Positions 2,921 through 40,506 of a stretch of 64,000 bases of DNA are shown here, in pieces. The stretch lies in the NCBI GenBank assembly GCA_019748055.1, contig JAIEQC010000019.1, forward strand, positions 1-64,000, written 5' to 3'. The notes under the pieces were generated by a model. That model was not told where the DNA came from. It was given only the letters and a program-made list of their open reading frames with translations, and ran no database searches. The stretch is from Caulobacteraceae bacterium (lineage in GTDB: Bacteria; Pseudomonadota; Alphaproteobacteria; Caulobacterales; Caulobacteraceae). How positions within the stretch are numbered: position 1 is the stretch's first letter; each line of letters starts with the position of its first letter. The position numbers and the translations under genes are program-made.

Positions 2921-5248
<2,328 letters not shown>

Positions 5249-25724: not shown

Positions 25725-25738
25725 TGTAACCGTTTACG
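25725..25738. promoter_or_regulatory. Predicted LacI-family operator upstream of the ABC ATPase gene
   Basis: TGTAACCGTTTACG is an interrupted palindrome centred on CG, the shape bound by many LacI-family repressors. It differs from the element before lacI (TGTAATCGGTTACA, 38774-38787) at only three of 14 positions. It lies 37 bases before the ATPase start codon. The match suggests the same regulator controls both ends of the locus. Confidence 0.65.
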
Positions 25739-25775
25739 CTGACGCCCAAGAAGAAACCGGCGTGGGTGGAGACGG

Positions 25776-26861
25776 ATGGCGGACGTTCGGCTGAGCGGCG
25801 TGACGAAGAGCTTCGGCGCCGTTCAGGTGCTGAAGGGCATCGACCTTGCGATCGCCGACGGCGAGTTCGTGGTGTTCGTCGGGCCGTCGGGCTGCGGGAA
25901 GTCCACCCTGCTGCGGACCATCGCCGGGTTGGAAGAGCTGGACGGCGGGTCGATCTCGATCGGCGGGCGCGAGGTGACCGGGCTGTCGCCGTCGGATCGC
26001 GGCATCGCCATGGTGTTCCAGTCCTATGCCCTCTATCCGCACATGACGGTGCGCGAGAACATGGGTTTCGCCCTGTCGCTGGCGAAGATGGACAAGGGCG
26101 AGATCAAGCGCCGCGTGGACGCGGCCGCCGAGGTTCTGAACATCGGCGACTACCTGGACCGCAAGCCCAAAGCCCTGTCGGGCGGGCAACGCCAGCGCGT
26201 GGCCATCGGCCGGGCCATCGTGCGCGAGCCGGAGGTGTTTCTGTTCGACGAGCCGTTGTCGAACCTGGACGCCGCCCTGCGGGTGCGGATGCGCTATGAG
26301 TTCGCGTCGCTGCACCAGCGACTGGGCACGACGATGATCTACGTCACCCATGACCAGGTGGAGGCCATGACCCTGGCCGACCGGATCGTGGTGCTGAACG
26401 GCGGGCGGATCGAACAGGTCGGCGCGCCGATGGAGCTGTACGAGCGCCCGGCCAACCGCTTCGTCGCCGAGTTCATCGGCAGCCCCAAGATGAACCTGAT
26501 CCCGGCGGAGGTGATCGAAGCCGGGGGCGGTCAGGTGACCGTGCGGACGGCGTCGGGCGCGGTCTTGCGGGCGGCAGTGAAGGCGAACGGCGCGAGGGTC
26601 GGCGACAAGGTCACCCTCGGCGTGCGCCCCGAGCATCTGTCGCCCGCGGGGCCCGGCGGCGCGCTGACGGCGAGCACCACCTTCGTCGAGACGCTGGGCC
26701 ACGCCACCTACGCCTATCTGGACGCAGGCGACGGAGAGACGCTGACGGCCCAGCTGGACGGTGCCGAGCGGCCGACGCAGGGGCAGTCGCTCACGCTCAA
26801 GGCGTCGGCGGACAAGGTGCAGCTATTCGACGCCGAGGGATGGGCGTTCGAGCGAGCGTAG
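25776..26861 (+). CDS. Sugar ABC transporter ATP-binding protein (MalK/MsmK/UgpC type)
   Basis: A 361-residue importer ATPase with Walker A GPSGCGKST, Q-loop FQSYALYPHM, signature LSGGQRQRVAIGRA, Walker B VFLFDEPLSNLD and the H-loop YVTHDQVEAM. A C-terminal OB/TOBE regulatory domain (residues 240-361) is as in MalK. It is the only ATPase gene near the two permeases on the opposite strand and would energise them from the cytoplasm. A GGAG site precedes ATG 25776. The LacI-type operator upstream implies induction by the imported glycan. Confidence 0.93.
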   Translation: MADVRLSGVTKSFGAVQVLKGIDLAIADGEFVVFVGPSGCGKSTLLRTIAGLEELDGGSISIGGREVTGLSPSDRGIAMVFQSYALYPHMTVRENMGFALSLAKMDKGEIKRRVDAAAEVLNIGDYLDRKPKALSGGQRQRVAIGRAIVREPEVFLFDEPLSNLDAALRVRMRYEFASLHQRLGTTMIYVTHDQVEAMTLADRIVVLNGGRIEQVGAPMELYERPANRFVAEFIGSPKMNLIPAEVIEAGGGQVTVRTASGAVLRAAVKANGARVGDKVTLGVRPEHLSPAGPGGALTASTTFVETLGHATYAYLDAGDGETLTAQLDGAERPTQGQSLTLKASADKVQLFDAEGWAFERA

Positions 26862-26865
26862 TGCC

Positions 26866-26893
26866 AGCCTTCTCCCGACGGGAGAGGGAGGCT
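26866..26893. terminator. Bidirectional hairpin between ATPase and glycosidase genes
   Basis: AGCCT-TCTCCC-GAC-GGGAGA-GGG-AGGCT folds into an 11-bp stem with a three-base GGG bulge. It occupies the 32-base gap between the convergent stop codons. No T-run is seen. Confidence 0.5.
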
Positions 26894-29800
26894 TCACCGC
26901 ATCTCCACGCGTCGGGCGTTCGCCGGAATTCTGAGCACGTGGCCGTCCCATTCCGCGGCGCGATCGTCGATGCGGACGCGGGCGGGGACGGGCTGGTCTT
27001 CGGGCCAGTGCAGCTCGAAGCCGCCGGACGGTGAGGCGGCGCCGGTGAAGGACAGCGTCCAGGCGGCGCCGTCGCGCTTCAGAAGCCATGACAGGGCGCC
27101 GTGAGCGGTGCGCAGGTCGCGGACTCCGACGCCGGTTTCGGACGCCATCCACTCGAACGGCAGGCCGGCCGCCAGCACAAGAACGCCGTCGTCCACCCGC
27201 TCATAGACCAGCAGGTCGATGGCCGAGCGGATATAGTCGGAGCTGATCCAGGCGTGGGGCATGTCGCCGATGAAGCGCGGCTCGCGCTCATGCCGGCCGA
27301 CGACCTCGGCCCAGCCGTTCCAGGCGACCGGGCGCATGTCGGCGAAGTAGAAGTCCAGCGCGCGCAGCGCCTCCTCGCGACGGCCCAGGCGGATCAGGGC
27401 GCCGACGTTGCGCAACTCATACGGCGTGTAGTCTCGCCAGGTCGTGCGGTTCTCCTGCCGCGCCGTGAAGTTGTCCCACCACTTGTCGAAGGTGTTGTTC
27501 AGCAGCGGCTGGGGCAGTTCGTCGATGAAGCCGCCGGGCGACAGGCCGATGGTGGTCGAGGTGGCGTCGAAGTCGCCGCGGTCGGCGGCGCCGGCGATCC
27601 AGTCGATGTCGTGGAAGGCGGCGGTCGCGGTGATGGAAGCCATGACGTCCGTCTGGAAATCCGTCCCCGCCGCGCGAATGCGTGCGGCCGCGTCCGTCTC
27701 GCCCAGAACGTCGGCGATGAAGGCGGCGTCGCGGTAGCCGATCAGGCCCCAGAAGTCGTCCCAGTAGCTGTAGGCCGGATTGTCCGAATAACCCTCGTGG
27801 CTGATGGTCGGCGGCAGCAGGCCGAACAGGTGGGCGGTTTCGGGCGTCCGGAACTCCGCCGTGCGCGTGGTGGCGCGCAGGCCGTCCATGTAGGCGATGG
27901 CCTTCTGCACCTGCGGCCAGACGCGGCGCAGAGCCTCCACGTCGCGGGTGTGGCGATAGTTCTCAGCGGCCAGGAAGATGAACTCGCCGTGGCTGTCGTT
28001 CTCCGGAACGGGGTCAGAGCCGCGGGCGTCGACGCAGCACGGCACTTTTCCGTCCTCGAAGACGTAGGGGGCGTACCAGTCCAGATAGGCGGAGGAGACG
28101 TCGGCATGGCCGAGCCGGTTCAGCCCCTCGGCCATCATGGCCCCGTCGCGGATCCAGGAGCGGTTGTAGCTGCGCGTTCCGGGCTGGATGATCGGCCCCT
28201 GACGCGACATCAGCATGTGGGCCAGCGACGACTTCGCGACGTCCTCGATGCGCTGCGCCTCCGGCGGCAGGATCAGGTCGAAACGGTCCATCTTGCCGCG
28301 CCATTCGGCGGCGACGCGGTCTTCGGCGGCGTCCAGCACGACCTCGACCGCGCCGGTCGGCGGCAGGTCCGGAGTCGGGCCCGACAGGCGCGCGACGAAG
28401 CCGAACGTCCGCCTTTCGCCCGGCTGGAGCGTGACGTCGTAGATCAGGGCGCCGGCCATGAGAGCCGAGGCGTCGGACTCGACGATCCTCTCGGCCGGAT
28501 CTCGGCGCGCCTCGGCGTCGGCGATCAGGCTCTGGGGGTCGGCGCCGGACTCGAAGGTCGAGACGGCCACGGCGTTCGGCGCCACGAGAGCCGAGACGCG
28601 GATCGCGTCATTGAGGACCAGCGCCGAGCCGTTCCAGTCAATTTGCTCGATCGGTCCGACGCCGCCGGGCACGGCGAGGAACTGCACCGGGCCATTGACC
28701 TGGAACGGCCGCGCGGCCAGAGCGAGGGTCAGGGTGCGAGGCCGGAGCGAGGTATTGGTCAGGACGTAGCGGCCATACAGCTGTGCTCGATCCGGCGTGC
28801 CCTCGGCGAAGCCGGTGACCGCCAGGGTCCACTCGTCGTGCGTCCACATCACGGTTGGAATGGGCAAGTCGTCGTCGCGCAGGGACTGTTCGACGCCGAC
28901 GTCGGCCCAAGTGATCAGGCGGCCGTTGTCGACGACGAAGGGCTCTATGGACGGGCCGCCGCGGCGCAGCTCAATGGCGCCGTCCTCGCTCATCAGCCCG
29001 CTCTCGCCGCCGCCGTCGACGCCGACCAGGGTCCAGTAGGGCTGTTCGCCCACGAAACCGCGTGGGTAGAGACCACGCAGGCTTTCTTCCGCCACCGCCA
29101 TAACGAACTTCGTCGGCGTCTCACCGAACGACAGGGGCTCGATCTCGATCTCGCGCAGACCATAGGATTCGGCACCGTCCAGGAGCGAGAGGCGCAGGTA
29201 GCGGCCGGAGGCTTCCGGCGTACGCAGCCAGTCCACGCCCGCGTTTCCATGATCGACGGAGGCGATCGTGTCCCAATCCGCGCCGTCGTTCGAAACCTCC
29301 AACCGATAGCGGCCGGCCCAGCCGTCATCCGTCCAGCGCAAGGTGACCCCGCCGAACTCGCGCTCATAGCCCAGGTCGAGCGTCAGGTTCTGAAAGACGC
29401 CGTACTCGCTGCGCCAGACAGTCGAGAGGTCGCCGTCGACGGCCTGTGACGCCGGGAAGCGCGCCTCCTCCGAGGTGGTAGAGGCGACCGGACGCGGAGG
29501 GACGCCCGGCTCGGGCGGCAGCTCTCGGATCTCGAGCTGGTCGACCTCCAGCGTGCCCGCGCCGCCCTGCCCCGCCGTGACCACGAACTCGATGCGTTCG
29601 GCGCCACGGAAGGTGCGGTCGGGATCGGGGCCCCAGGCCCAGGTGATCTGGCGCTTCTTGATGGTGAAGCGGGTCCATTCGGACGGCGCCTGGAAGTTCT
29701 CGATGCGGCGCCAGTGGACATTGCGGCCGGTGGCGTCGACGAACTTGATCTCCAGCGTGTTGGGCCGCATGTCGCCGCGCGCCCAAAAGCTGATCTCGAA

Positions 29801-30049
29801 ATTCTCCGGCACGTTCAGGTCGATGGGGCGGGCGGCGAAGGCGTAGCCCGAGCGACCGTTGAAGTCGTAGCTGAGCCGCATGGCTCGCCCCTCGCGCCCG
29901 TCCACCGGCGCAATGTCGGATGAGACGTCGGTCGAGGCGTCGGCCGCCCACGGCGACAGGTCCTCGAAGGCGTCGAGGACGCGGGGCTCCTGGCCGAGGA
30001 CGGGCGAGGTGAGGACGAACGCCGCGAGGACGCCGAGGAGAACGCGCAT
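26894..30049 (-). CDS. Large exported six-hairpin glycosidase-like protein with carbohydrate-binding and discoidin modules
   Basis: A 1051-residue exported protein with signal peptide (MRVLLGVLAAFVLTSPVLGQ). Residues about 20-165 form a galactose-binding/CIA30-like jelly roll; about 175-315 resemble an F5/8 C (discoidin) domain (ASQAVDGDLSTVWRS...YLRLSL). A central beta region follows, then a C-terminal alpha/alpha-barrel (about 620-985) with RSYNRSWIRDGAMMAEG, a glucoamylase-like active-site pattern, and several acidic candidates. I cannot name a GH family. ATG 30047-30049 has GGAG upstream. It is the last gene of the transport operon, 20 bases after the second permease, so it should act on the same glycan in the periplasm or outside. 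Confidence 0.8.
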   Translation of the reverse strand: MRVLLGVLAAFVLTSPVLGQEPRVLDAFEDLSPWAADASTDVSSDIAPVDGREGRAMRLSYDFNGRSGYAFAARPIDLNVPENFEISFWARGDMRPNTLEIKFVDATGRNVHWRRIENFQAPSEWTRFTIKKRQITWAWGPDPDRTFRGAERIEFVVTAGQGGAGTLEVDQLEIRELPPEPGVPPRPVASTTSEEARFPASQAVDGDLSTVWRSEYGVFQNLTLDLGYEREFGGVTLRWTDDGWAGRYRLEVSNDGADWDTIASVDHGNAGVDWLRTPEASGRYLRLSLLDGAESYGLREIEIEPLSFGETPTKFVMAVAEESLRGLYPRGFVGEQPYWTLVGVDGGGESGLMSEDGAIELRRGGPSIEPFVVDNGRLITWADVGVEQSLRDDDLPIPTVMWTHDEWTLAVTGFAEGTPDRAQLYGRYVLTNTSLRPRTLTLALAARPFQVNGPVQFLAVPGGVGPIEQIDWNGSALVLNDAIRVSALVAPNAVAVSTFESGADPQSLIADAEARRDPAERIVESDASALMAGALIYDVTLQPGERRTFGFVARLSGPTPDLPPTGAVEVVLDAAEDRVAAEWRGKMDRFDLILPPEAQRIEDVAKSSLAHMLMSRQGPIIQPGTRSYNRSWIRDGAMMAEGLNRLGHADVSSAYLDWYAPYVFEDGKVPCCVDARGSDPVPENDSHGEFIFLAAENYRHTRDVEALRRVWPQVQKAIAYMDGLRATTRTAEFRTPETAHLFGLLPPTISHEGYSDNPAYSYWDDFWGLIGYRDAAFIADVLGETDAAARIRAAGTDFQTDVMASITATAAFHDIDWIAGAADRGDFDATSTTIGLSPGGFIDELPQPLLNNTFDKWWDNFTARQENRTTWRDYTPYELRNVGALIRLGRREEALRALDFYFADMRPVAWNGWAEVVGRHEREPRFIGDMPHAWISSDYIRSAIDLLVYERVDDGVLVLAAGLPFEWMASETGVGVRDLRTAHGALSWLLKRDGAAWTLSFTGAASPSGGFELHWPEDQPVPARVRIDDRAAEWDGHVLRIPANARRVEMR

Positions 30050-30069
30050 ACTTTCAGCTCCGCGACAGG

Positions 30070-30897
30070 TCAGCCCTTCACGCTGCCCGCGAGCATGCCG
30101 CGGATGTAGTAGCGTTGCAGGGCGAGGAAGAGGATCAGCACGGGGGCGACGGTGAGGACGGCCCCCGCCATCATCATCTCGGCGTCCTGCACGTGCTCGC
30201 GCGACATGGCCGCGAGGGCCACCGGCAGGGTGTAGTTCGACTGGTCGGTCAGAACGATCAGCGGCCACAGGAAGTCGTTCCAGCTGCCCAGGAAGACGAA
30301 CAAGGCCAAGGTCACGACGATCGGCTGCAGCGTGGGGAGGACCACGCGGCGAAATATCTGGCCTTCCGAGGCGCCGTCGACGCGAGCTGCCTCCAGCATC
30401 TCGTCGGGGATGGAAAGTGCGTACTGACGCACCAGAAACAGGCCAAATATCGAAGCCAACCAGGGCACCAATGCCCCCGCGTAGGTGTTCACCAGACCCA
30501 TGGACTTCAGCATCAGGAACAGCGGCAGGGTGCCGATCTGGGCCGGCACGACCAGCGCCGCGACCAGCAGCTGGAACAGGCGGTCGCGGCCGGCGAAGCG
30601 CAGCTTGGCGAAGGCGTAGCCGGCGGGGACGGTGAACAGGAGCGCCAGGGTCGTGGCCAGCGTCGCCAGGATCAGGCTGTTGAGCATGTAGCGGCCCATG
30701 CCCTGGGTCACGAACAGGTCGCGGTAGTGCTCCAGCGTCGGCCTGGACGGCCAGAGCGGCGGCGGGAAGGTGGCGGCCTCGCCCTGGCTCATGAAGCTGA
30801 CGGAAACCATCCAGACCAGCGGGAACAGGACGACGACGACCAGCAGGACGACGGCCAGATTGGCGAGCACCGCCCGAAGATCGAGGCGCCGGCTCAT
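30070..30897 (-). CDS. Carbohydrate ABC transporter permease (MalG type)
   Basis: A 275-residue inner-membrane permease with six predicted helices. The EAA loop, which contacts the ATPase, reads EAARVDGASEGQIFRRVVLPTLQP. MalG-like features are the SFMSQGEAATFPPPLWPSRPTLEHY periplasmic segment and a C-terminal RYYIRGMLAGSVKG. ATG 30895-30897 overlaps the stop of the first permease (ATGA), so the two subunits are translationally coupled. Confidence 0.94.
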   Translation of the reverse strand: MSRRLDLRAVLANLAVVLLVVVVLFPLVWMVSVSFMSQGEAATFPPPLWPSRPTLEHYRDLFVTQGMGRYMLNSLILATLATTLALLFTVPAGYAFAKLRFAGRDRLFQLLVAALVVPAQIGTLPLFLMLKSMGLVNTYAGALVPWLASIFGLFLVRQYALSIPDEMLEAARVDGASEGQIFRRVVLPTLQPIVVTLALFVFLGSWNDFLWPLIVLTDQSNYTLPVALAAMSREHVQDAEMMMAGAVLTVAPVLILFLALQRYYIRGMLAGSVKG

Positions 30898-31832
30898 TCG
30901 TAGGCCCCCAGACGGCGGGCGACGGCCAGCTGGATCAGGGTGACGGCAAGAATGCAGAGGAAGAGAATGAATGCGACCGCCGAGGCGGACCCCAGGTTCC
31001 ACCATTTGAAGCCCTCTTCGTACATGAAGTAGAGCACCGTCACGGTCGACTGGGCCGGCCCCCCTTGCGTCATGACGTAGGGCTCGGCGAACAGCTGGAA
31101 GAAGCCCGCCACCGAGATGATCGACACCAGCAGCAGGGTCGGGGCGATGGCCGGCAGGGTCACGTGGCGGAAGCGGGTCCAGGCCCCGGCGCCGTCGATG
31201 CGGGCGGCCTCATGCAACTCGTCCGGCACGGTCTGGAGGACCGCCAGGAAGATCAGCATGTTGTAGCCGAAGGTCTTCCAGACGACGAAGATCAGGATGG
31301 CCGGGATCGAGGTCGCCGGGCTGCCCAGCCAGTCGACCGCCGGCAGGCCGACGCCGGTCAGGGCCCAGTTGATCAGGCCATAGCGGGTGTGCAGCAGGTA
31401 GTTCCACAGCACCGCCGTGGCGACCAGGGTGGTGACGAAGGGGGCGAAGAAGGCGACGCGCCAGACCGGACGCCACCTGATGATGCGGGCGTTCAGCAGC
31501 AGGGCGGCGGCCAGCGAGGCGGCGATGGAGGCCGGCACGCCGATCAGGGCGAACAGGCCGGTGTTCTTCATCGCCCCCCAGAACAGCGGATTGCCGAACA
31601 GGTTGACGTAGTTGTCCAGCCCGACGAAGCGCAGGTTGCGCAGGTCGGCCAGGGCGTAGATGTCGAAGTCGGTCAGGCTGAGCAGCAGGGCCGCAATGAC
31701 CGGCACGGCGAAGAAGACGGCGATGGCGATCAGGGCCGGGGCGACGAAGCCCCAGGCAGCCCGCGAGCGGGTGCGCGGGTGCGCGGCGGGGCGGCGCGGC
31801 TCGGCGGCGATGGTGGCCTCGACGGCGGTCAT
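30894..31832 (-). CDS. Carbohydrate ABC transporter permease (MalF type)
   Basis: A 312-residue permease with six helices and the EAA loop EAARIDGAGAWTRFRHVTLPAIAP. The Lys/Arg-rich, Ala-rich N-terminal tail of about 35 residues is cytoplasmic. Together with the downstream MalG-type gene it forms the membrane channel; the ATPase is encoded divergently beyond the glycosidase gene. Its start overlaps the stop of the solute-binding protein by four bases. Confidence 0.94.
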   Translation of the reverse strand: MTAVEATIAAEPRRPAAHPRTRSRAAWGFVAPALIAIAVFFAVPVIAALLLSLTDFDIYALADLRNLRFVGLDNYVNLFGNPLFWGAMKNTGLFALIGVPASIAASLAAALLLNARIIRWRPVWRVAFFAPFVTTLVATAVLWNYLLHTRYGLINWALTGVGLPAVDWLGSPATSIPAILIFVVWKTFGYNMLIFLAVLQTVPDELHEAARIDGAGAWTRFRHVTLPAIAPTLLLVSIISVAGFFQLFAEPYVMTQGGPAQSTVTVLYFMYEEGFKWWNLGSASAVAFILFLCILAVTLIQLAVARRLGAYE

Positions 31833-33094
31833 GCCCTGCCCTGCTCCTTCATCCAGCGCCGCTTGGCCAGCAGGCGGTCGGCGCGCCGGTCGATCTCGGC
31901 GGCGGCGGTCTCGGGCGTGAACTCGCCGCGGACCATGCGCTCGGCCACGATCTGCATCTCAGTCACGATGCGCTCCCACTCCGGCGCCTTGGGAAGGGGC
32001 TTCGCACGCTCCAGCTGCCCCTTGAACGCCGAGATGGCGGGATCGGCGACGACGGCGGGGGCGGCCCAGGCGCTGGGCCGGCTGGGCAGATCGCCGGTGA
32101 TGCGGTTGAACTCGACCTGGATCGCCGGATCCATGAGGAAGCGAACCAGCTTCCACGCCGCCTCCTGATTGGGCGACGAGCGATAGACGACAAGCGAGGA
32201 CCCGCCGGGGGCCGAGGCGCCGGGGCCCCGCGGGCCGGGCACTCCGGCGGTGTTCCACCGCGTCGTCGGTGACAGGCGGTCGCGGAACTCGCCGATGGTC
32301 CAGGGCCCCGAGAAGTGGAAGCTGAACCAGCCGCGGTCGAACTCGGTCCAGACGTTTGAGATCTGGGTCGAGGAGGCGACGGGGGCCAGGCCTTCGTCGA
32401 ACAAGCTCTTGTAGAAGGCCAGGGCCGCGACGAAGGACGGACTGGAGAAGTTCCCGCGCGTGTCGTCGTCGCGCAGCAGGGGCTCGTCGCCCTGAAGTCC
32501 CAGCGTCAGAAGCTGCTCGAACTCATTGAGCGGCAGAAGGATCGCGTACTTGTCCGGGCCCTGGATGCGTTTGACGGCGTGCATGGCCGCCTTCCACTCC
32601 GGCCAAGTCGTCGGCACGGCGTCGTAGCCCGCGCGGCCGAGGATGTCGGTGCGCACGAACAACAGACGGGTGTCGACGTACCACGGCACGCCGACGACGC
32701 GACCGTTCACCCGGTTGGTGTCGAGCACGGCCGGGAACTGGTCGGCCAGGAGATCGGCGGCGGACGGCGGCAGCTCGCTGATGGCGCCGATGGCCGACAT
32801 CTCGGACACCCAGGTGTTGCCGACCTGGCTGAGGTCCGGAAGCGAGGACCCGGCATAGGCGGTCAGCAGCTTCTGGTGTGCGGCGGTCCAGGGAAGCGCC
32901 TGGACGTCGACCTTGATGCCGGGATTGAGCGCTTCAAAGCGGGGCAGCAGCTGGGGGACGTTCGTCGCCTCATTACCCATGGCCCAGAAGGTCAGGCGCG
33001 TTCCCTCCCCTTTTGGGCCGCAACCGGCCAGACCCGCTGCGGCGCCTGCCATCAGGCCCAGCGCGGCGCGACGGTCGGGCCGCGTCTTGCTCAC
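31829..33094 (-). CDS. Extracellular solute-binding lipoprotein of a sugar ABC transporter
   Basis: A 421-residue MalE-like binding protein. The signal has twin Arg (PDRRAALGLMAG) and a lipobox GLAGC with Cys25, so it is an exported lipoprotein, possibly by Tat. Features include LTFWAMGNEATNVPQLLPRFEALNPGIKV at the mature N-terminus and a C-terminal VWKLV-type helix region. It should deliver an oligosaccharide to the permease pair. The GTG start (33092-33094) overlaps the stop of the glucanase gene (GTGA). Confidence 0.92.
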   Translation of the reverse strand: MSKTRPDRRAALGLMAGAAAGLAGCGPKGEGTRLTFWAMGNEATNVPQLLPRFEALNPGIKVDVQALPWTAAHQKLLTAYAGSSLPDLSQVGNTWVSEMSAIGAISELPPSAADLLADQFPAVLDTNRVNGRVVGVPWYVDTRLLFVRTDILGRAGYDAVPTTWPEWKAAMHAVKRIQGPDKYAILLPLNEFEQLLTLGLQGDEPLLRDDDTRGNFSSPSFVAALAFYKSLFDEGLAPVASSTQISNVWTEFDRGWFSFHFSGPWTIGEFRDRLSPTTRWNTAGVPGPRGPGASAPGGSSLVVYRSSPNQEAAWKLVRFLMDPAIQVEFNRITGDLPSRPSAWAAPAVVADPAISAFKGQLERAKPLPKAPEWERIVTEMQIVAERMVRGEFTPETAAAEIDRRADRLLAKRRWMKEQGRA

Positions 33095-34518
33095 GCGCGA
33101 TCCAGCCAGCCGCCGGTGAAGCCGGCGCGCTTGAGGCCGCGGATGAGGTTGGGTTCCGACCGCATGCGCTTCCAGACGGCGTCGCTGCGTCCGTTCTCGA
33201 TCTGGATGACGATGGGGCCCTGGTCGATGCCCAGGTAGTCGCCGTCCACCCAGCCCACTCCGGGCACGATCGCCCCATGCTGAAGCGGCCCATCCCGCTG
33301 CGTCAGCGTCGGGTTGAAGCTGTCCAGAAAGCCGTACTGGGTCCAGATGCCGGCGCCGTATCGGGCCTTCATGGCCTTGAAGCAGGCGGTCACCTCGGCC
33401 GGGGCGAAGGGATAGCTGGCGAGCGCGGCCGTCGGCGCGATCGTTCCGTCGTCCCGCTCTCCCGGCCCACGCGCGGAATAGGAATGGAACTCGCGCTCTC
33501 GACCGTCGACGACCTGTTTGAAGTCGCCCGGCCCGTCGCAGGCGGTCAGGCCCCAGACCTGGTCGTCATAGCCGACCCAACCCTTCGGGTTGCGGACCGC
33601 ATAGTCCTTCTGCGCCGCGACGGCGCGGACGCTGTTCTGGAAGTAGTCGAAGCCGGGGATTTCGGCCTGAACGCCGCGCATCCAGGCGTCGTGAATGCCG
33701 CGGAAGTCGACGTACATGTGGCTGTACTGGTGCCCGAACAGCGGCGCGAACTGCAGGTGCTTCGGGCCCCATTCCGCGTTGAAGCTGCGGCCGTAGACGC
33801 TGCACCACTCGGTCCAGACGTCGGCGGACACCGGATGGGTCTCGCTGCCGACGGCCAGCAACAGGACCAGCATGCCCTCGTTGTAGACGTGCCAATCGGC
33901 GGGGATGAAGCCGCTCTCCGGATGCCAGCCCATGGTGATGCGACGCGGCCGGACCTCAGCCCAGTCCCACTCCACGCGGTCGTAGATGGCCTGGACCCTG
34001 GCGCGGATTTCGGCCTCTTCCGGATGGTCGGCGTCGAACCACTGCTTGGCGTAGAGCATGCCGCCGAGCAGCAGAGTGGTGTCCACCGTCGACAGCTCGG
34101 TCGTGCCGAACCGGTGCCCGGTCTTCATGTCGAGGAAGTGGTAGAAGAAGCCCTTGTGACCCGTCATGCCGGTCGCGGCGGGCCCCTGCGGCGCGTCGTG
34201 GAAGAAGCGGATCGTGGCCAGGGTGCGGTCGCGCGCCTCTTTGCGGCTCATCCAGCCGCGCTCGACCCCGATGGGCCAGCAGGTCAGGGCGAAGCCAACG
34301 GCCGCGACCGAGGCGAAAGACGGAGTCGGCCAGCGGTCCGGCGTCAGGCCGTTCTGGCGGTTCTGGGTCTCGGCGAACCAGCGGAACGTCCGGTGCTGGA
34401 GATCGGTCAGCTCAGGGTCGACGCGGGCAGCTACCCCTGGAAGCCCCACACTCGTGCAGCCGGAGCCCGCCAGAGCGGCGGCCGAACCCACGGACAGCAG
34501 AAGTTGGCGTCGGTCCAT
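33091..34518 (-). CDS. GH144/PF10091 glucanase-like exported protein (candidate endo-beta-1,2-glucanase)
   Basis: A 475-residue protein matching the PF10091 glucoamylase-like family, reclassified in part as GH144 (endo-beta-1,2-glucanases). Recognisable stretches are HRTFRWFAETQNRQNGL, ASVAAVGFALTCWPIGVERGW, GFFYHFLDMKTGHR, ELSTVDTTLLLGG, LFGHQYSHMYVDFRGI and WGLTACDGPG. The N-terminus has twin Arg (DRRQLLLSVG) and a lipobox-like AGSGC, so it is probably a periplasmic or surface lipoprotein. GAGG lies eight bases before ATG. It leads the transport operon. Substrate is inferred from family. Confidence 0.87.
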   Translation of the reverse strand: MDRRQLLLSVGSAAALAGSGCTSVGLPGVAARVDPELTDLQHRTFRWFAETQNRQNGLTPDRWPTPSFASVAAVGFALTCWPIGVERGWMSRKEARDRTLATIRFFHDAPQGPAATGMTGHKGFFYHFLDMKTGHRFGTTELSTVDTTLLLGGMLYAKQWFDADHPEEAEIRARVQAIYDRVEWDWAEVRPRRITMGWHPESGFIPADWHVYNEGMLVLLLAVGSETHPVSADVWTEWCSVYGRSFNAEWGPKHLQFAPLFGHQYSHMYVDFRGIHDAWMRGVQAEIPGFDYFQNSVRAVAAQKDYAVRNPKGWVGYDDQVWGLTACDGPGDFKQVVDGREREFHSYSARGPGERDDGTIAPTAALASYPFAPAEVTACFKAMKARYGAGIWTQYGFLDSFNPTLTQRDGPLQHGAIVPGVGWVDGDYLGIDQGPIVIQIENGRSDAVWKRMRSEPNLIRGLKRAGFTGGWLDRA

Positions 34519-34550
34519 GGGAAAATCCTCGTACGCGAAACTCGAAAACT

Positions 34551-34593
34551 CAAAAAGAAACGGGCCGCCGCGACAATGCGGTCGCGGCGGCCC
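34551..34593 (-). terminator. Strong Rho-independent terminator after the TonB-dependent receptor gene
   Basis: On the minus strand a perfect 13-bp stem (GGGCCGCCGCGAC / GTCGCGGCGGCCC) with a six-base loop is followed by GTTTCTTTTTG. It separates the lacI-receptor unit from the glucanase-transporter operon. That operon therefore either has its own promoter in the next 30 bases or depends on read-through. Confidence 0.9.
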
Positions 34594-34610
34594 ACAGGCT
34601 CAGGAAGTCA

Positions 34611-37607
34611 TCACCAGCGATAGCGCAGGCCGACCTGGAAGCTGCGCGTCGGCAGGGCCTGCGATCGGGGATCGCCGTATTCCGCCGAGCACAGGCACTG
34701 CTCGAAGCCGTTGTAGTTCCGGTAGTTGAACACGTTGATGGCGTCGAACGTCGCCTCGACCGCGTGCCCGTCCCACAGCTCAAAGGTGCGGGTCAGACGC
34801 AGGTCGACCTGACGGTAGGCCCAGGCGTCCGGGATGATGAAGCCGTACTTCTTGGGCCGTCCGGCGTTCCAGCAGATGTCCGGGTTGGACGGATCCGGAC
34901 GGACGGCGGTGGGGCACACGAACTGGGTGAACGGCGTGCCGGATCCCAGGGTCACGATGCCCGACAGCTTGAAGTCCGCCGGCAGGTCGATGATGCCGGA
35001 GGCGACGATGCGGTGGCGCTCGTCGAACGACGACGGGTACCAAGGCGTCTGGGTAGGATAGTTGTAGTCGAAGTCGAAGCCGGCCATCCCGTTGTCACGA
35101 CTGCCGTTCTGCTCGGCGTCCATGAAGGTGTAGGCGAAGTTGAAGCCCCAGCCGTCCTGGGCGTTGTAGGGCTTGTCCAGCTTCAGATAGACGGCCTCGT
35201 ACCGACGCTCACGCTCGTGCGCCGAGAAGAAGATCAGGTTCCGGAACTCCGGGAAGCCGACCGAGCTCGGCGTCGGGCCGCCGAAGCGGTTGCCCGTCTC
35301 GGTGCCGGCATTGGCGATGTACCAGGCGAACTCGTTCTTGGTGCGCCCGGCGGCCAGAGTGAGCTCCGCCTGCCAGTCGCCGAACTTCTGGCGTAGGCCG
35401 ATGTTGTACTGATCGGTGTACGGGATCGGGGCGTCGTTCTTGACCAGGAAGACCTCGCCCGCGCCCGGGGCCGCGGCCAGCAGAGGATCGAGACCCGCCG
35501 GCGTCAGATAGGACGGGTTCCAGGCCACCGTCGGCACGCCGTTCACCGGCGCGCCGGTCAGGGAGAAGAAGATCTCCTTGTTGAACTGCAGCGGCTTGAA
35601 GCGCTCGTCGAAGGCGAAGTTGAAGCCGATACGGTCATAATACCGGCCGGCGCCGCCGAAGATGACGGTCCGCTCGTCGTCGAAGACGTCGTAGCTGAAG
35701 CCGACGCGGGGCTGCCAGGCGTCCTTGAAGGCTTCCCGGTTGCCGTCGGAGATGTAGTCGGCCGGATTGAAGTACGACGGGAAATCATAGCCCGGAAGCG
35801 CCTGAATGGCGTTCAGCATGTTCCGGATGTTTGTCGGGGTCACGTAGTCGTTGTTAACCGCGTTGTCCTCATAGTCCCAGCGAAGGCCGAGATTGATTTC
35901 CAGTTGCGGGGTGATCTGCCAGTCGTCCTGGATATAGAAGCCGAAGACGTTGTTCTCGACGTCAGCGGCGGGAACCGGCGATCCCAGGAAGACGCTGACG
36001 GGGATGTCGCGGCTGCCGTTGATCTCCGGACGTCCCTCGACGTCGAAGCGGAACTGGGGGTTCCGGCCGAACTGCTTGTTCACGTACATCGTCTGCATCG
36101 AGTACTTGGCGCCCAGCTTGATGGTGTGAGTGCCCATCCACTGGACGTCGGTGAACGTCAGGTCGTTCTTAAACGTCAGGTTTTCCTGCTCGATGTACTG
36201 ATTGTCGGACCGGCCGCCGGTGTTGAACACGGTACGGTCGCGGTTGAAGACGTTGTACTGGAAGCCAGGCGCCGGGCTGTCGTCACGGAAGACGATGAAC
36301 TCACGTCCGTAGTCTGAGAAGTTCAACGCCGTCGGATTGTAGACGTACTGGAAGTAGTCGACGGACGCCTCGTTGAAGAAACCCGCGCCGGTCCACTGGT
36401 GCTTCAGGACGACAGAACGCACGTCGGTGTTGACCTGCTGGGCGCGGTCAAAGGACGTCGTACCGCCGAAGTCGCGGATGTCGTTCTCGTCGCGGAAGGT
36501 TCCGCTGAGTTCCAGACGGTGGTCGGGGTTCACCTGCCAAGACAGCTTGCCGAACAACAGGTCCTGTTCGAACGGCGCGGCGAAGGTCCCGAACTCGGAG
36601 GCGAACAGCGAGCCGAACGTGGCGTCGTTGGAGAAGACGCTGTTCGACCGCGTTTCATCCTTGCGCTCATACGCCATGAAGAAGTGCAGCGTGTCCTCGA
36701 TGATCGGACCGCCGACCGAGAAACCATACTGGAGGTTCTCCAGCGGCGCCTTGGGCACGTTGTTGCGACGATCGAAGATGGTCTGTTCGATCCAGTCCTG
36801 GTCCTGGTAGGTGACGAAGACGTCGCCCGAGAAGTCGTTCGTGCCCGAGCGGGTCACGGCCGTGATGACAGCCGAACCGGCCTGCTCGTACTCGGCCTTG
36901 AAGTTCTGGGTGATGACCCGGAATTCCTGCACGCCGGCCTGCGGGAACGGGTTGCCGCGGCTGTCGTCCTGACCGGCCACGCCGCCGTCGATGATGGTCG
37001 ACTTCTGGTTCTGACCGTCGATGAAGACGTTGATCTGCTGGGCCGGCGCGCCGCCGGCCGAGATGGTGCGCTCCTGCGGGTCCTGCGACAGGCGCAGGCC
37101 GGGGGCCAGAGCCGCGAAATTCAGGAAGTTGCGGTTGATCTGCGGCAGGTTGTTGATCTGCGCCTGGCTGACGTTGGTCGCGATTTCCGGGGTGCGGACT
37201 TCGAACAGGCGGCGACCGACCACCACGATGTCGTCGACCTGGGTCGCTCCGTCGGTGGAGACGCCGGCGGTGTCGAGGTCCAGGGTCCCGACCTGACCGA
37301 GCGCCAGAGTCACGGTGTCGCTGGCGGCGTCGCCGTCGGCCGTGGCGACGGTGATTTCATAGGTGCCCGGGCGCAGACCGGGAATGACGTACCCGCCGTC
37401 GGCGGCGATCCGGCCGCGCGTGGTGAAGCCTGTGGCGACGTCGCGAGCCGTGACGGTTCCGCCCGTCTCGGGCTGGCCGCCGTCGGTCACGGTCCCGCGC
37501 AGCGTGGCGCTGGAAACCTGAGCCGCGGCCGTGCCGGCCACCCCCAGCGAAACGGCGAGGGCCAGCGCCGAGGCCGCCCCGAGATAGCGCATGTTCATCC
37601 TAGACAT
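34611..37607 (-). CDS. TonB-dependent outer-membrane receptor with carboxypeptidase-regulatory-like N-domain (Oar type)
   Basis: A 998-residue outer-membrane receptor. After a signal peptide (cleavage near TAAAQ) comes a CarboxypepD_reg-like beta sandwich (residues about 36-115), then the plug domain with a TonB-box-like VDDIVVVGRR, and a 22-strand-type barrel ending in the aromatic VGLRYRW. The sequence belongs to the Oar/maltodextrin-type receptors common in Caulobacteraceae. It should import the glycan or its fragments into the periplasm using TonB energy. Three Met codons lie near the start (37607, 37598, 37592); the exact start is uncertain. It overlaps the lacI stop. Confidence 0.93.
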   Translation of the reverse strand: MSRMNMRYLGAASALALAVSLGVAGTAAAQVSSATLRGTVTDGGQPETGGTVTARDVATGFTTRGRIAADGGYVIPGLRPGTYEITVATADGDAASDTVTLALGQVGTLDLDTAGVSTDGATQVDDIVVVGRRLFEVRTPEIATNVSQAQINNLPQINRNFLNFAALAPGLRLSQDPQERTISAGGAPAQQINVFIDGQNQKSTIIDGGVAGQDDSRGNPFPQAGVQEFRVITQNFKAEYEQAGSAVITAVTRSGTNDFSGDVFVTYQDQDWIEQTIFDRRNNVPKAPLENLQYGFSVGGPIIEDTLHFFMAYERKDETRSNSVFSNDATFGSLFASEFGTFAAPFEQDLLFGKLSWQVNPDHRLELSGTFRDENDIRDFGGTTSFDRAQQVNTDVRSVVLKHQWTGAGFFNEASVDYFQYVYNPTALNFSDYGREFIVFRDDSPAPGFQYNVFNRDRTVFNTGGRSDNQYIEQENLTFKNDLTFTDVQWMGTHTIKLGAKYSMQTMYVNKQFGRNPQFRFDVEGRPEINGSRDIPVSVFLGSPVPAADVENNVFGFYIQDDWQITPQLEINLGLRWDYEDNAVNNDYVTPTNIRNMLNAIQALPGYDFPSYFNPADYISDGNREAFKDAWQPRVGFSYDVFDDERTVIFGGAGRYYDRIGFNFAFDERFKPLQFNKEIFFSLTGAPVNGVPTVAWNPSYLTPAGLDPLLAAAPGAGEVFLVKNDAPIPYTDQYNIGLRQKFGDWQAELTLAAGRTKNEFAWYIANAGTETGNRFGGPTPSSVGFPEFRNLIFFSAHERERRYEAVYLKLDKPYNAQDGWGFNFAYTFMDAEQNGSRDNGMAGFDFDYNYPTQTPWYPSSFDERHRIVASGIIDLPADFKLSGIVTLGSGTPFTQFVCPTAVRPDPSNPDICWNAGRPKKYGFIIPDAWAYRQVDLRLTRTFELWDGHAVEATFDAINVFNYRNYNGFEQCLCSAEYGDPRSQALPTRSFQVGLRYRW

Positions 37608-38664
37608 CCTGATTGTCCCCCTGAGCGGAAGCGTTCACCACCGACGGCCGCCCGCCCGCCGGTCGCGTTTCTGAAATTTCCGGCCGCGTGGAACCACGCG
37701 TCACCAGTTCCGGTCGGACGACCTGGCGTCCGGCGTCCGTGGCGCCGTCGATGAGCGAAAGCAGGCGCTCCAGCGCCGTGCGCCCGGTCCCGGCGATGTC
37801 GATTCGCAGCGTGGTGAGTCCCGGCCTGACCAGGGAGGCCAGAGGGACGTCGTCGAAGCCGACGACCGCCACGTCCTGCGGGCAACGGACGCCCGCCTCC
37901 TGCAGCGCGAGAAGCGCGCCCAGCGCCATCATGTCGTTGCCGGCGAAGATCGCGTCCACGTCCTGGCCTGAGGCCGACAGCTCCAGCCCGGCCCTACGAC
38001 CGGAGGCCATGTCGAAGTCCCCCTCGATGACGCGCGCGTCGAGGCCCGCCTGGGCCATGGCCTCAAGATAGCCGGACAGCCGGGCTTCGGCTTCGAGGTT
38101 GTCCGCCGGCCCGGACACATGGACGATCCTGCGGCGCCCCAGTTGAACCAGGTGACGGACCGCCGTCATGGCGCCGCCGTGGTTGTCGACCACGATCGAC
38201 GGACGGTCCGGCTCGGCCGCGTCGTCGTTCAGCCGCACGACCGGCAATCCGCTGGTCAGGCCGGCGGCCGCCTGACCCACCGTGGCGTGCGGCGACATGA
38301 GGACGAGCCCGTCCACCCGTCCGCGCATGGATCGTATGGCCGCGGCCGCTTGATCCGCGTCGTCGTGCGAACTGGAAACGATCAGGTGATAGCCGCGCTC
38401 GCGCGCCGCCAGGTCCATGCCCCGGATCAGTTCGGAGAAGAACTCGCCATAGAGGTCCGGCAGGATGACGCCGACGGTCTGGGTCCGGCTGGTCGAAAGG
38501 CTGCGCGCGCCCGAATGCGGCACGTATTGCAGGGCCTCGACCGCCTCCATGACCTTCTTGCGCGTGGCCTCGGTCACCGGCCCGGCGCCGTTCAACACGC
38601 GGGAGACCGATGCCACCGACACCTCGGCGCGGCGCGCGACGTCGCGGATGTTGGCCGGCTTCAC
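37600..38664 (-). CDS. LacI-family transcriptional regulator
   Basis: A 354-residue LacI/GalR regulator. The N-terminal helix-turn-helix reads NIRDVARRAEVSVASVSRVLNG, with the hinge ALQYVPHSGARSLS, followed by a periplasmic-binding-like effector domain (TVGVILPDLYGEFFSELIRGMD...GFDDVPLASLVRPGLTTLRID). The GTG at 38662-38664 starts four codons before the usual NIRDVA and has GGAG eight bases upstream; an upstream ATG (38791-38793) would place the operator inside the gene. It is the first gene of the receptor unit and probably represses it until the sugar appears. Confidence 0.93.
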   Translation of the reverse strand: MKPANIRDVARRAEVSVASVSRVLNGAGPVTEATRKKVMEAVEALQYVPHSGARSLSTSRTQTVGVILPDLYGEFFSELIRGMDLAARERGYHLIVSSSHDDADQAAAAIRSMRGRVDGLVLMSPHATVGQAAAGLTSGLPVVRLNDDAAEPDRPSIVVDNHGGAMTAVRHLVQLGRRRIVHVSGPADNLEAEARLSGYLEAMAQAGLDARVIEGDFDMASGRRAGLELSASGQDVDAIFAGNDMMALGALLALQEAGVRCPQDVAVVGFDDVPLASLVRPGLTTLRIDIAGTGRTALERLLSLIDGATDAGRQVVRPELVTRGSTRPEISETRPAGGRPSVVNASAQGDNQDV

Positions 38665-38773
38665 GCCGACGCTCCGCGATCCCGGAATCGAGACGGGTTC
38701 GACCTCAAGCGATCCTCCTGGAAGATCCGCGCGGGTCCCGGCCTCTTGATCGAAGTCCGTCCCGCCACGAGTC

Positions 38774-38787
38774 TGTAATCGGTTACA
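38774..38787. promoter_or_regulatory. Predicted LacI-family operator upstream of lacI/receptor
   Basis: TGTAATCGGTTACA is a palindrome apart from one central mismatch pair, centred on CG. The location, 110 bases before the lacI start, fits autoregulation. A near-identical site occurs before the ABC ATPase gene at 25725-25738. Confidence 0.72.
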
Positions 38788-38871: not shown

Positions 38872-40398
38872 TCAGCGGCCGAGGCGGGCGTAGAAGCGCT
38901 CGATCAGATCCAGCCGATCCGCGTGGGGCATCCGCCGGGCCTGCGGCCCCCCGTTTCCGAACTCCAGAAGTGCGTCGGGTTCGGTCCGAAAATCAGGCCA
39001 GACAGGCCTTCCGGCGGCGTTGGGGTCTCCCGCTCTGGCGAAATCGGTCCAGTAGGCGGCCATGAGCCGCGACGCCGCGTGATCGCGGTCGCCGAGCGGA
39101 CGTCCGACCGTATGGAGGTTTTCGAAGACGTAGGGGCGTTCGGATGCATGCGTCGCTCCGCCGCTGGGCTCGGGGTTGGAGTCGGGAACAACGTCGAAAC
39201 GATAGAGCCAGGTCGGATGACCGGCCTTGGCGTGCAGGCGCGCGAGATGTCGAACCGGCTCGTTGAAGATCAGGTCGCTGACGACATGCTGGTCATATCC
39301 CTGCGCGCCTCCATAGGCGGCCAGAAGGGCGTCATGCTCGACCTCCGTCATGGCGTCGTCCGCGCGTCCGTAGGCGCCGGCGTCGCTGGGGCGGATCCAC
39401 CAGAACTCGGCGCTGTTCGTGCCCAGCATCAGGGGAACGGGGGCCTGACGCCCGGCTTCGAACGCCTCGACCACATCCTCGGAGAGCACCTGATGGTCGA
39501 CGATGAGGTTGTCCGAATAGAAGGCCGGCATCGGGCTGAGCAGCCGCTCGGCAGGCACGGCGCGCAGCGCGGCGGCGGCGACGTCGGGCGGGAGTCCGGC
39601 GGCGCGGGCCCAGTTCCGGCCCAAGGTCTGTGCGGATGGACGGCCGGGGCGATCCAGGGCGAGGTCGGCCGACCTCTGACGCCCCATGCCGGACTGCACG
39701 ATCGCGCGGTGGAAGAGACCGCGTGCCCGGGGGGCGATCATGAGCTGGGTCACGGCCACGCCGCCCGCCGACTCGCCGAAGATCGTCACGTTTTCCGGAT
39801 CGCCGCCGAAGGCCGCGACGTTGGTCCGAACCCACTCCAGCGCGGCGATCTGATCCATCACGCCGTAGTTGCCCGCAGGTTGATCCGCCGCCCGCTCGAC
39901 CGCCAGCGCGGGATGGTCGAAGAAGCCGAGCCGCCCCAGGCGATAGTTGACCGTCACCACCACGACGCCGCGCCTCGCCAGCGCCGACCCGTCATAGAGC
40001 GCCGCCGTCCCCGAGCCGTTGTTGTATCCGCCGCCATGGATCCAGACCATGACGGGCAGGTTCCGGGCGCCCGTCGGCGTCCAGACGTTCAGCGTCAGGC
40101 AATCCTCTCTCATGGGCAGCGGCCCCACGCCGGGGTCACCGTTCGCGGGGGGCTGGATGCAGATGGCGCCGTACTCAGTCGCTTCCCGAACTCCGGTCCA
40201 AACCGCCGCAGGCCGAGGCGGGCGCCAGCGAAGATCGCCGACGGGCGGCTGGGCATAGGGCAGGCCCTTGAACGCCGACACCCCCTGTTCCGACACGCCT
40301 CGCACGGGCCCGTCGGCGGTGGCGACGACGGGTCGATCAGGATCCTGTGCGGGGCTGAAACTCATCAGAACGGCGGCCACGACGGCGAGAACGGACAT
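38872..40398 (-). CDS. Exported type B carboxylesterase
   Basis: A 508-residue alpha/beta hydrolase of the type B carboxylesterase family. A signal peptide (MSVLAVVAAVLMSF) precedes the mature part. Family signatures are EDCLTLNVWTP, VMVWIHGGGYNNGSG (oxyanion hole) and the nucleophile elbow FGGDPENVTIFGESAGGVAV. The start at 40396-40398 fits the signal peptide; an upstream TTG is less likely. It points toward the lacI operator but has its own promoter region, shared divergently with the histidine kinase. Substrate is unknown; deacylation of plant-derived esters is one option. Confidence 0.9.
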   Translation of the reverse strand: MSVLAVVAAVLMSFSPAQDPDRPVVATADGPVRGVSEQGVSAFKGLPYAQPPVGDLRWRPPRPAAVWTGVREATEYGAICIQPPANGDPGVGPLPMREDCLTLNVWTPTGARNLPVMVWIHGGGYNNGSGTAALYDGSALARRGVVVVTVNYRLGRLGFFDHPALAVERAADQPAGNYGVMDQIAALEWVRTNVAAFGGDPENVTIFGESAGGVAVTQLMIAPRARGLFHRAIVQSGMGRQRSADLALDRPGRPSAQTLGRNWARAAGLPPDVAAAALRAVPAERLLSPMPAFYSDNLIVDHQVLSEDVVEAFEAGRQAPVPLMLGTNSAEFWWIRPSDAGAYGRADDAMTEVEHDALLAAYGGAQGYDQHVVSDLIFNEPVRHLARLHAKAGHPTWLYRFDVVPDSNPEPSGGATHASERPYVFENLHTVGRPLGDRDHAASRLMAAYWTDFARAGDPNAAGRPVWPDFRTEPDALLEFGNGGPQARRMPHADRLDLIERFYARLGR

Positions 40399-40506
40399 CT
40401 GGCCAGACTGGACAGGCAGGACGGTTCCGGCAACGAACAAAAAAGTTTCGTGCGGCGGAACCGCGCACCAAGCGTGACGTTAAGCACACCGCAAGCGGGG
40501 GACGGA

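Follow-up and report, generated by a model that had tools for sequence, protein, structure and literature searches.

Gene clusters associated with the use of beta-1,2-glucan have been described in several bacteria, and each resembles in part the locus analyzed here, which lies on a 64,000-nucleotide stretch (hereafter, the window) of a Caulobacteraceae genome (GCA_019748055.1, contig JAIEQC010000019.1). The cluster of Ignavibacterium album, like the window, brings together an enzyme of glycoside hydrolase (GH) family GH144, a TonB-dependent transporter, a homologue of a protein that binds sophoro-oligosaccharides (Sopn), and proposed ATP-binding cassette (ABC) uptake, but it also has GH94 and GH35 enzymes; the passages on this cluster describe no operator, and whereas one of them mentions a putative GH3 enzyme, another states that a beta-glucosidase homologue is absent (PMC8861115). 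Listeria innocua (lin1839-1841) and Streptomyces griseus (SGR_2423-2427) share with the present system an Sopn-type ABC importer and a GH3 or GH1 beta-glucosidase. They differ in being Gram-positive, with no TonB step, and in having a GH94 phosphorylase (Listeria) or a GH193 protein (Streptomyces, where ABC import and GH1 occur without a phosphorylase) (PMC12369401).

Two further precedents concern gene organization and regulation. The carbohydrate utilization (CUT) loci of Xanthomonas campestris group a TonB receptor, an enzyme, an inner-membrane transporter, and a regulator, as the window does, although their worked example, sux, uses a major facilitator superfamily (MFS) carrier and serves sucrose; where XCC2208 appears in the main text of that study, it is simply a receptor that lacks a canonical plug (PMC1790865). 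In Caulobacterales, the order to which the window belongs, the LacI-family repressors BglR1-3 were predicted for beta-glucoside operons, but the corresponding passages assign none of them to beta-1,2-glucan (PMC4052901). The characterized enzyme closest to the window glucanase is XcSGL of Xanthomonas (XCC2207, GH144; PMC12102758), from a genus that differs in making cyclic beta-1,2-glucan (PMC11228985).

Here, we describe the window locus as the core of what is very probably a LacI-controlled beta-1,2-glucan utilization regulon in an apparent consumer of this polymer, a reading drawn from sequence comparisons. ABC import with a beta-glucosidase, TonB with ABC uptake, CUT loci, and LacI regulators for beta-glucosides in Caulobacterales are all known already; what is new, within the literature searched, is a regulon defined by its operator, an exchange between GH1 and GH3, a counterpart in another family, and an unclassified enzyme. 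A preliminary description had claimed that the locus encodes every layer of glycan uptake, and all of the genes it reported are open reading frames that match the families named (Table 1), with receptor, carbohydrate enzyme, inner-membrane transporter, and sugar regulator together as in a CUT locus. It had also presented the joining of TonB and ABC uptake as unusual: both gene sets are present, but the Ignavibacterium cluster is a precedent (PMC8861115).

Glucanase and binding protein

The likeness of the 475-residue lipoprotein to PF10091, noticed at the outset, far exceeds the family cut-off (Table 1), and the protein (hereafter, SGL) ranks with the GH144 enzyme XcSGL, far ahead of the GH194 structure; by PDB ranking, its sequence is nearer to GH144 than to GH192-194, GH162, or GH189. 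Its best PDB relative is XcSGL (8xul; 500 bits, E = 8e-149), with the next PDB sequence at 170 bits; a four-sequence SGL profile scores 616 bits against XcSGL and 224 against the next. Among the 9 PDB matches, the further PF10091 structures reach 118 to 170 bits and the GH194 enzyme PgSGL3 (8xuk) reaches 36.5, and no clan structure other than GH144-like/PF10091 and GH194 appears. The residues that define the clan in XcSGL, an endolytic enzyme with narrow specificity for beta-1,2-glucans, are E239, F286, and Y367 (PMC12102758); with one constant numbering offset of 14, they correspond to E214, F261, and Y347 of the window protein (the PDB chain of XcSGL itself has Q in the E239 column). An acidic general-base candidate, E142 of CpSGL, would fall on D146 by way of profile alignments to other GH144-like structures. 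This ranking and the retained clan residues support assignment of the product to GH144 as a predicted endo-beta-1,2-glucanase.

The solute-binding protein (SBP) independently points to sophoro-oligosaccharides. Its best PDB relative is 3UOR, the MalE protein of Xanthomonas citri (438 bits), followed by Lin1841 (193 bits), with no other listed structure above 121 bits, so that, 3UOR excepted, it is nearer Lin1841 than any other binding protein listed, those of the maltose type included. Lin1841 binds Sop3-5 (PMC12369401). The same pairing recurs in a genome of family f184, which would be the Xanthomonas family: on stretch L110, an SGL gene (best PDB match 8xul, 943 bits) lies beside an SBP gene whose best match is 3UOR (684 bits), with Lin1841 second (225 bits). 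From this we infer that X. citri MalE, whose locus tag is presumably XAC2310, binds sophoro-oligosaccharides.

The annotation of X. citri MalE suggests instead that the ABC genes encode a maltose/trehalose transporter that merely sits beside a glucanase, and SGL genes do stand without ABC genes in 36 of the 67 loci with full flanks (see below). We nevertheless consider this explanation very improbable: the paper that carries the annotation enters 3UOR among proteins of unknown ligand (PMC7676653), Lin1841 outranks all other listed PDB binding proteins except 3UOR for both the window and L110 SBPs, and the SBP gene overlaps the SGL gene in the window, with the same order in 31 ABC-type loci and 5 further genomes.

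Neighborhoods of related glucanase genes

A search of genome contigs gave at least 572 SGL relatives, and the best 80, many of them close kin, were analyzed together with flanks of up to 10 kb. The main counts refer to 67 loci whose flanks both reach 5.5 kb or more; the other 13 were dropped for short flanks. The set of sampled genomes and that of named relatives overlap in part. A TonB-dependent receptor is present at 64 of the 67 loci, a LacI regulator at 60, and a binding protein with permease at 31. These 31 ABC-type loci derive from Brevundimonas, Caulobacteraceae-like metagenome-assembled genomes (MAGs), two Lysobacter, Vulcaniibacterium, Hephaestia, and one Sphingomonas; 26 have the large exported enzyme, 17 have GH1, none lacks both, and 1 has GH3. 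Of the 36 non-ABC loci, from Sphingomonas and related genera, 28 have GH3, 17 an MFS_2 carrier, and 10 the large enzyme; none has GH1. Most of the GH3 N termini inspected carry a twin-arginine-like signal. GH1 thus accompanies ABC import, as expected for a cytoplasmic finishing enzyme, and exported GH3 goes with the other route.

Outside these designs, seven Sphingomonas loci (L049, L051, L062, L063, L070, L077, and L079) have no LacI or GH3 match nearby and form a third, reduced design, with a TonB receptor in all but L049. Two other stretches (L010 and L011, each at 3.7 to 10 kb) have two tandem TonB receptor genes before SGL, versus one in the window.

The operons of f184 are close counterparts of that in the window: all four SGL stretches taken from f184 genomes run from TonB receptor through SGL, SBP, MalF, and MalG to the large enzyme, and LacI was seen on two of the four. 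They differ in their ATPase gene, which L109 carries at a distance of 6.6 kb and which the three remaining stretches do not include. The order from SGL to the large enzyme is also kept on one stretch from the same taxonomic order outside the genus, in which no TonB receptor lies between LacI and SGL.

Operator and probable regulon

Of 71 regions upstream of lacI, that of the window among them, 62 hold the exact operator TGTAAnCGnTTACA and 70 hold it with at most 1 mismatch, whereas base-shuffled controls gave 0 exact sites and 1 with at most 1 mismatch of 3,550. At this tolerance, the 64 kb hold 2 matches, versus 0.01 expected, and the bounds originally proposed for the locus, 25725 and 38787, prove to be exactly the outer edges of these two copies. 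The site before the ATPase gene is likewise conserved, occurring with at most 2 mismatches within 250 bases upstream in 15 of 17 relatives, versus 4 of 340 shuffles. The LacI protein of the locus presumably binds the motif TGTAACCGATTACA.

Only two perfect sites exist in the whole genome, one before lacI and the other on another contig (C22:5171-5184), at the 5' end of a GH3 gene whose product has no signal peptide. A nominal GTG start at 5163 would put this operator inside the gene; the start is therefore more likely downstream. These matches support a regulon that would extend beyond the window to this GH3. The PDB relatives of the C22 enzyme include Lin1840 and 5xxl (which we take to be BT_3567), neither of them its best match. 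Both are beta-1,2-active GH3 enzymes (PMC12369401). The other large GH3 of the genome carries a twin-arginine-like signal, and its gene lacks the operator. A third GH3 match is, judging by its size, presumably NagZ-like.

The gene content of the genome (2.76 Mb, 99.94% complete) fits a consumer. Its closest named relatives in homology searches are Brevundimonas, the others being alphaproteobacterial MAGs. The preliminary description saw no phosphorylase at the locus, and this extends genome-wide for GH94: a search with PF17167, positive in 2 of 14 control genomes, found no match. Nor did genome-wide searches match GH1, MdoG (OpgH was not searched), or a second PF10091 gene. Known routes of beta-1,2-glucan synthesis are of the OpgG/D or NdvB type. 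With no MdoG, no GH94, and a single PF10091 gene, these routes are not complete, OpgH not having been searched, and the cell appears to consume the polymer and to use GH3 for the last step of oligosaccharide breakdown.

Further operator sites stand at genes of other kinds. An operator-like palindrome lies in an hslV/BLUF-like intergenic region at G000:C28:11304 and L169:3001 (one perfect, one with 1 mismatch). In three genomes of the genus (L180, site 2208; L197, 3001; L203, 3001), a perfect operator precedes a lipoprotein-like gene, presumably sulfatase-like, that is divergent from another gene, which we take to be ThiG-like; the sulfatase-like protein could trim substituents of osmoregulated periplasmic glucans (OPGs). 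At L204:3038-5977, a perfect operator precedes a second, 36% identical TonB receptor; the gene before it presumably resembles tryptophan halogenases.

Interchange of GH1 and GH3

The perfect operator occurs in 39 of 61 genomes of the genus (57 sites in all, versus 1 site across all 61 for the reversed pattern), and the 55 sites outside the source genome were taken with their neighbors for gene matching. GH1 lies beside the lacI operator in 17 of the 39 genomes, and an operator precedes GH3 elsewhere in the genome in 9, 6 of them encoding enzymes without a signal; the five such GH3s other than that of C22 are 74 to 76% identical to it. No genome among the 39 has both arrangements (Fisher's P = 0.0025, not corrected for kinship), and in G697, one of the genomes with GH1, a second lacI locus lacks it. 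Within the literature searched, an interchange of GH1 and GH3 as finishing enzymes of such a regulon is new.

A related pattern appears in f184, where the degenerate motif TGWAAnCGnTTWCA occurs at 10 places in genome G650, including SGL, an ATPase gene, a GH3 with no signal, and a paralogue of the large enzyme; in both G650 and G368, it lies between the TonB receptor and SGL. An RNA-seq overlap in X. citri, in a phoP and osmotic-stress setting, consisted of two genes, a GH3 beta-glucosidase and XAC2312 (Li et al., PMC9108719), the latter corresponding to a TonB-dependent receptor (PMC7748154). From the numbering (XCC2208 is next to XCC2207), XAC2312 would be the receptor beside SGL. The X. citri GH3 may be that of G650.

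Several observations weigh against a LacI-controlled beta-1,2-glucan regulon. Among 289 genomes of the class, no more than 5 hold an SGL relative (3 of the 5 in this genus), and 8 of the 36 non-ABC loci have no GH1, GH3, large enzyme, or MFS_2 carrier in reach. The large enzyme, to which the proposed pathway gives no defined role, is absent from 5 of the 31 ABC-type loci. In the genus, 22 of 61 genomes have no perfect operator site, 13 of the 39 that do have neither lacI-side GH1 nor a perfect-operator GH3 (in 2 of these 13, a site with 1 mismatch precedes an exported GH3), and the enzyme looks exported in 3 of the 9 operator-GH3 cases. The motif itself resembles the general LacI-family consensus. 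Several of the 10 degenerate sites in G650 stand at other genes, and the f184 genome G364 has no such site, though its operon is present. Moreover, PhoP is reported to bind the promoter of the X. citri GH3 gene (PMC9108719), and the link between this gene and XAC2312 may run through PhoP.

Large exported enzyme

The preliminary description called the product of 26894-30049 a large exported glycosidase-like enzyme, and its predicted structure agrees, with a fold like that of GH15, 65, 78, and 94, though with no Pfam catalytic family. The protein, of the same length in its database copy, consists of a signal peptide, an N-terminal part that resembles a carbohydrate-binding module (CBM; a weak CBM_4_9 match is below the cut-off), an F5/8 type C domain, and a catalytic module. 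The AlphaFold2 (AF2) model of residues 300 to 1051 (pLDDT, 86.4; pTM, 0.88) folds as a beta-sandwich plus (alpha/alpha)6 barrel, as in GH15, 65, 78, 94, and 116. The catalytic module has no Pfam match at E values up to 1, and the protein has no NCBIfam match at 0.001 and a best PDB profile E value of 0.26; one homologue (L076) scores 23.4 bits against PF17389 (rhamnosidase 6-hairpin), just below the cut-off of 24.5. Of 7,997 candidate database proteins scored, 6,634 match the module at E values up to 0.001. A sample of 398 genomes from the phylum gave matches in 16 (12 strong, at E values up to 1e-97, and 4 weak and partial). Ten stretches around such matches comprise 5 ABC-type operons, 1 locus of the GH3/MFS type, 2 lone homologues, 1 cut at a contig end, and 1 with no match.

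In the f184 genome G650, L262:825-3944 encodes a paralogue (33 to 34% identity) with its own perfect operator upstream; there is no SGL match on this stretch.

F5/8-type modules and GH3 enzymes have broad specificity. Together with a large enzyme and a neighboring carboxylesterase that have no known substrates, this leaves room for a locus serving a mixed or different beta-glucan, or beta-1,2-bonded glucosides such as sophorosides rather than bacterial OPGs, with GH144 as one of several activities; the Caulobacterales BglR regulators, too, were predicted for beta-glucosides in general (PMC4052901). We regard this as improbable, given that the characterized GH144 enzymes described in the cited passages act on beta-1,2-glucans or sophoro-oligosaccharides (PMC12102758, PMC11842490) and that the SBP is related to the Sop3-5-binding Lin1841 (PMC12369401).

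We propose tentatively, as a possibility somewhat short of even, that the large enzyme founds a new beta-1,2-glucan GH family and, jointly, that X. citri MalE and its operon form a beta-1,2-glucan importer common to alpha- and gammaproteobacteria under one conserved operator. The enzyme may then be, for example, an exo-acting beta-1,2-glucosidase, an opener of alpha-1,6 links, or a trimmer of substituents in cyclic OPGs.

Organization of the locus

The genes that begin with lacI and end with that of the large enzyme lie in order on the minus strand; the ATPase gene is on the plus strand and points toward them (Table 1). Overlaps of 4 to 8 bases or near contacts occur at lacI/receptor, SGL/SBP, and SBP/MalF (and at MalF/MalG, if MalG starts at ATG 30897), and the run from lacI to the large enzyme therefore fits one transcription unit. 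The DNA-binding domain and the operator position place the real lacI start near 38664. Signal peptides, lipoprotein signals, and the lipobox were assigned by eye. A Pfam scan found no PF07715 plug domain in the receptor-type protein. A carboxylesterase-family gene (38872-40440) adjoins lacI and recurs at many Brevundimonas loci.

Table 1. Features of the probable beta-1,2-glucan locus, numbered along the window
Feature	Position	Strand	Evidence and remarks
LacI-type operator copy TGTAACCGTTTACG, 1 mismatch	25725..25738		37 bases before ATPase start codon
MsmK/UgpC-type (UgpC/MalK-type) ABC transporter ATPase	25776..26861	+	NF008653, 484 bits (cut-off, 432); operator upstream
Large exported enzyme, 1051 aa	26894..30049	-	F5/8 type C domain; AF2 model; fold matches
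ABC permease, MalG/UgpE-type	30070..30897	-	PF00528 (BPD_transp_1); frame open from 31005, ATG 30897 likelier start
ABC permease, MalF/UgpA-type	30894..31832	-	PF00528
Solute-binding lipoprotein, SBP_bac_8	31829..33094	-	PDB ranking: 3UOR, then Lin1841
Predicted GH144-type endo-beta-1,2-glucanase (SGL), lipoprotein signal	33091..34518	-	PF10091, 236.6 bits (cut-off, 27); XcSGL 8xul, 500 bits
TonB-dependent receptor-type outer-membrane protein	34611..37607	-	CarboxypepD_reg and OMP_b-brl_4
LacI-family regulator	37600..38664	-	PF00356, PF13377; frame open from 38820, likely start GTG 38664
Perfect LacI-type operator TGTAATCGGTTACA	38774..38787		109 bases upstream of likely lacI start

Proposed pathway and implications

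In the pathway that we propose, the TonB-dependent receptor would take external linear or cyclic beta-1,2-glucan of the OPG type, or fragments of it, across the outer membrane. Endo-type cleavage of the chain by the GH144 lipoprotein would yield short sophoro-oligosaccharides, with help from the large exported enzyme, for which the proposal specifies no bond, and the lipoprotein SBP, MalFG-type permease, and UgpC-type ATPase would import these products. In the cytoplasm, the operator-linked GH3 beta-glucosidase of contig C22 would release glucose with no use of a phosphorylase, and an oligosaccharide or glucose would presumably release LacI from the operators before lacI, the ATPase gene, and the GH3 gene. 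Substrate, localization, inducer, and direction of flux are inferred throughout.

Many bacteria have beta-1,2-glucans as osmoregulated polymers and in their interactions with hosts, and the consumption of these glucans by environmental Gram-negatives is little described. Here, a whole route can be read from the sequence, and a precise operator, which links genes at separate sites, allows a direct test of induction. The locus suggests a ligand for the solved but unassigned structure 3UOR and partners for XcSGL, and its large enzyme is a concrete candidate founder of a new GH family. Closely related systems are found in several other bacteria.

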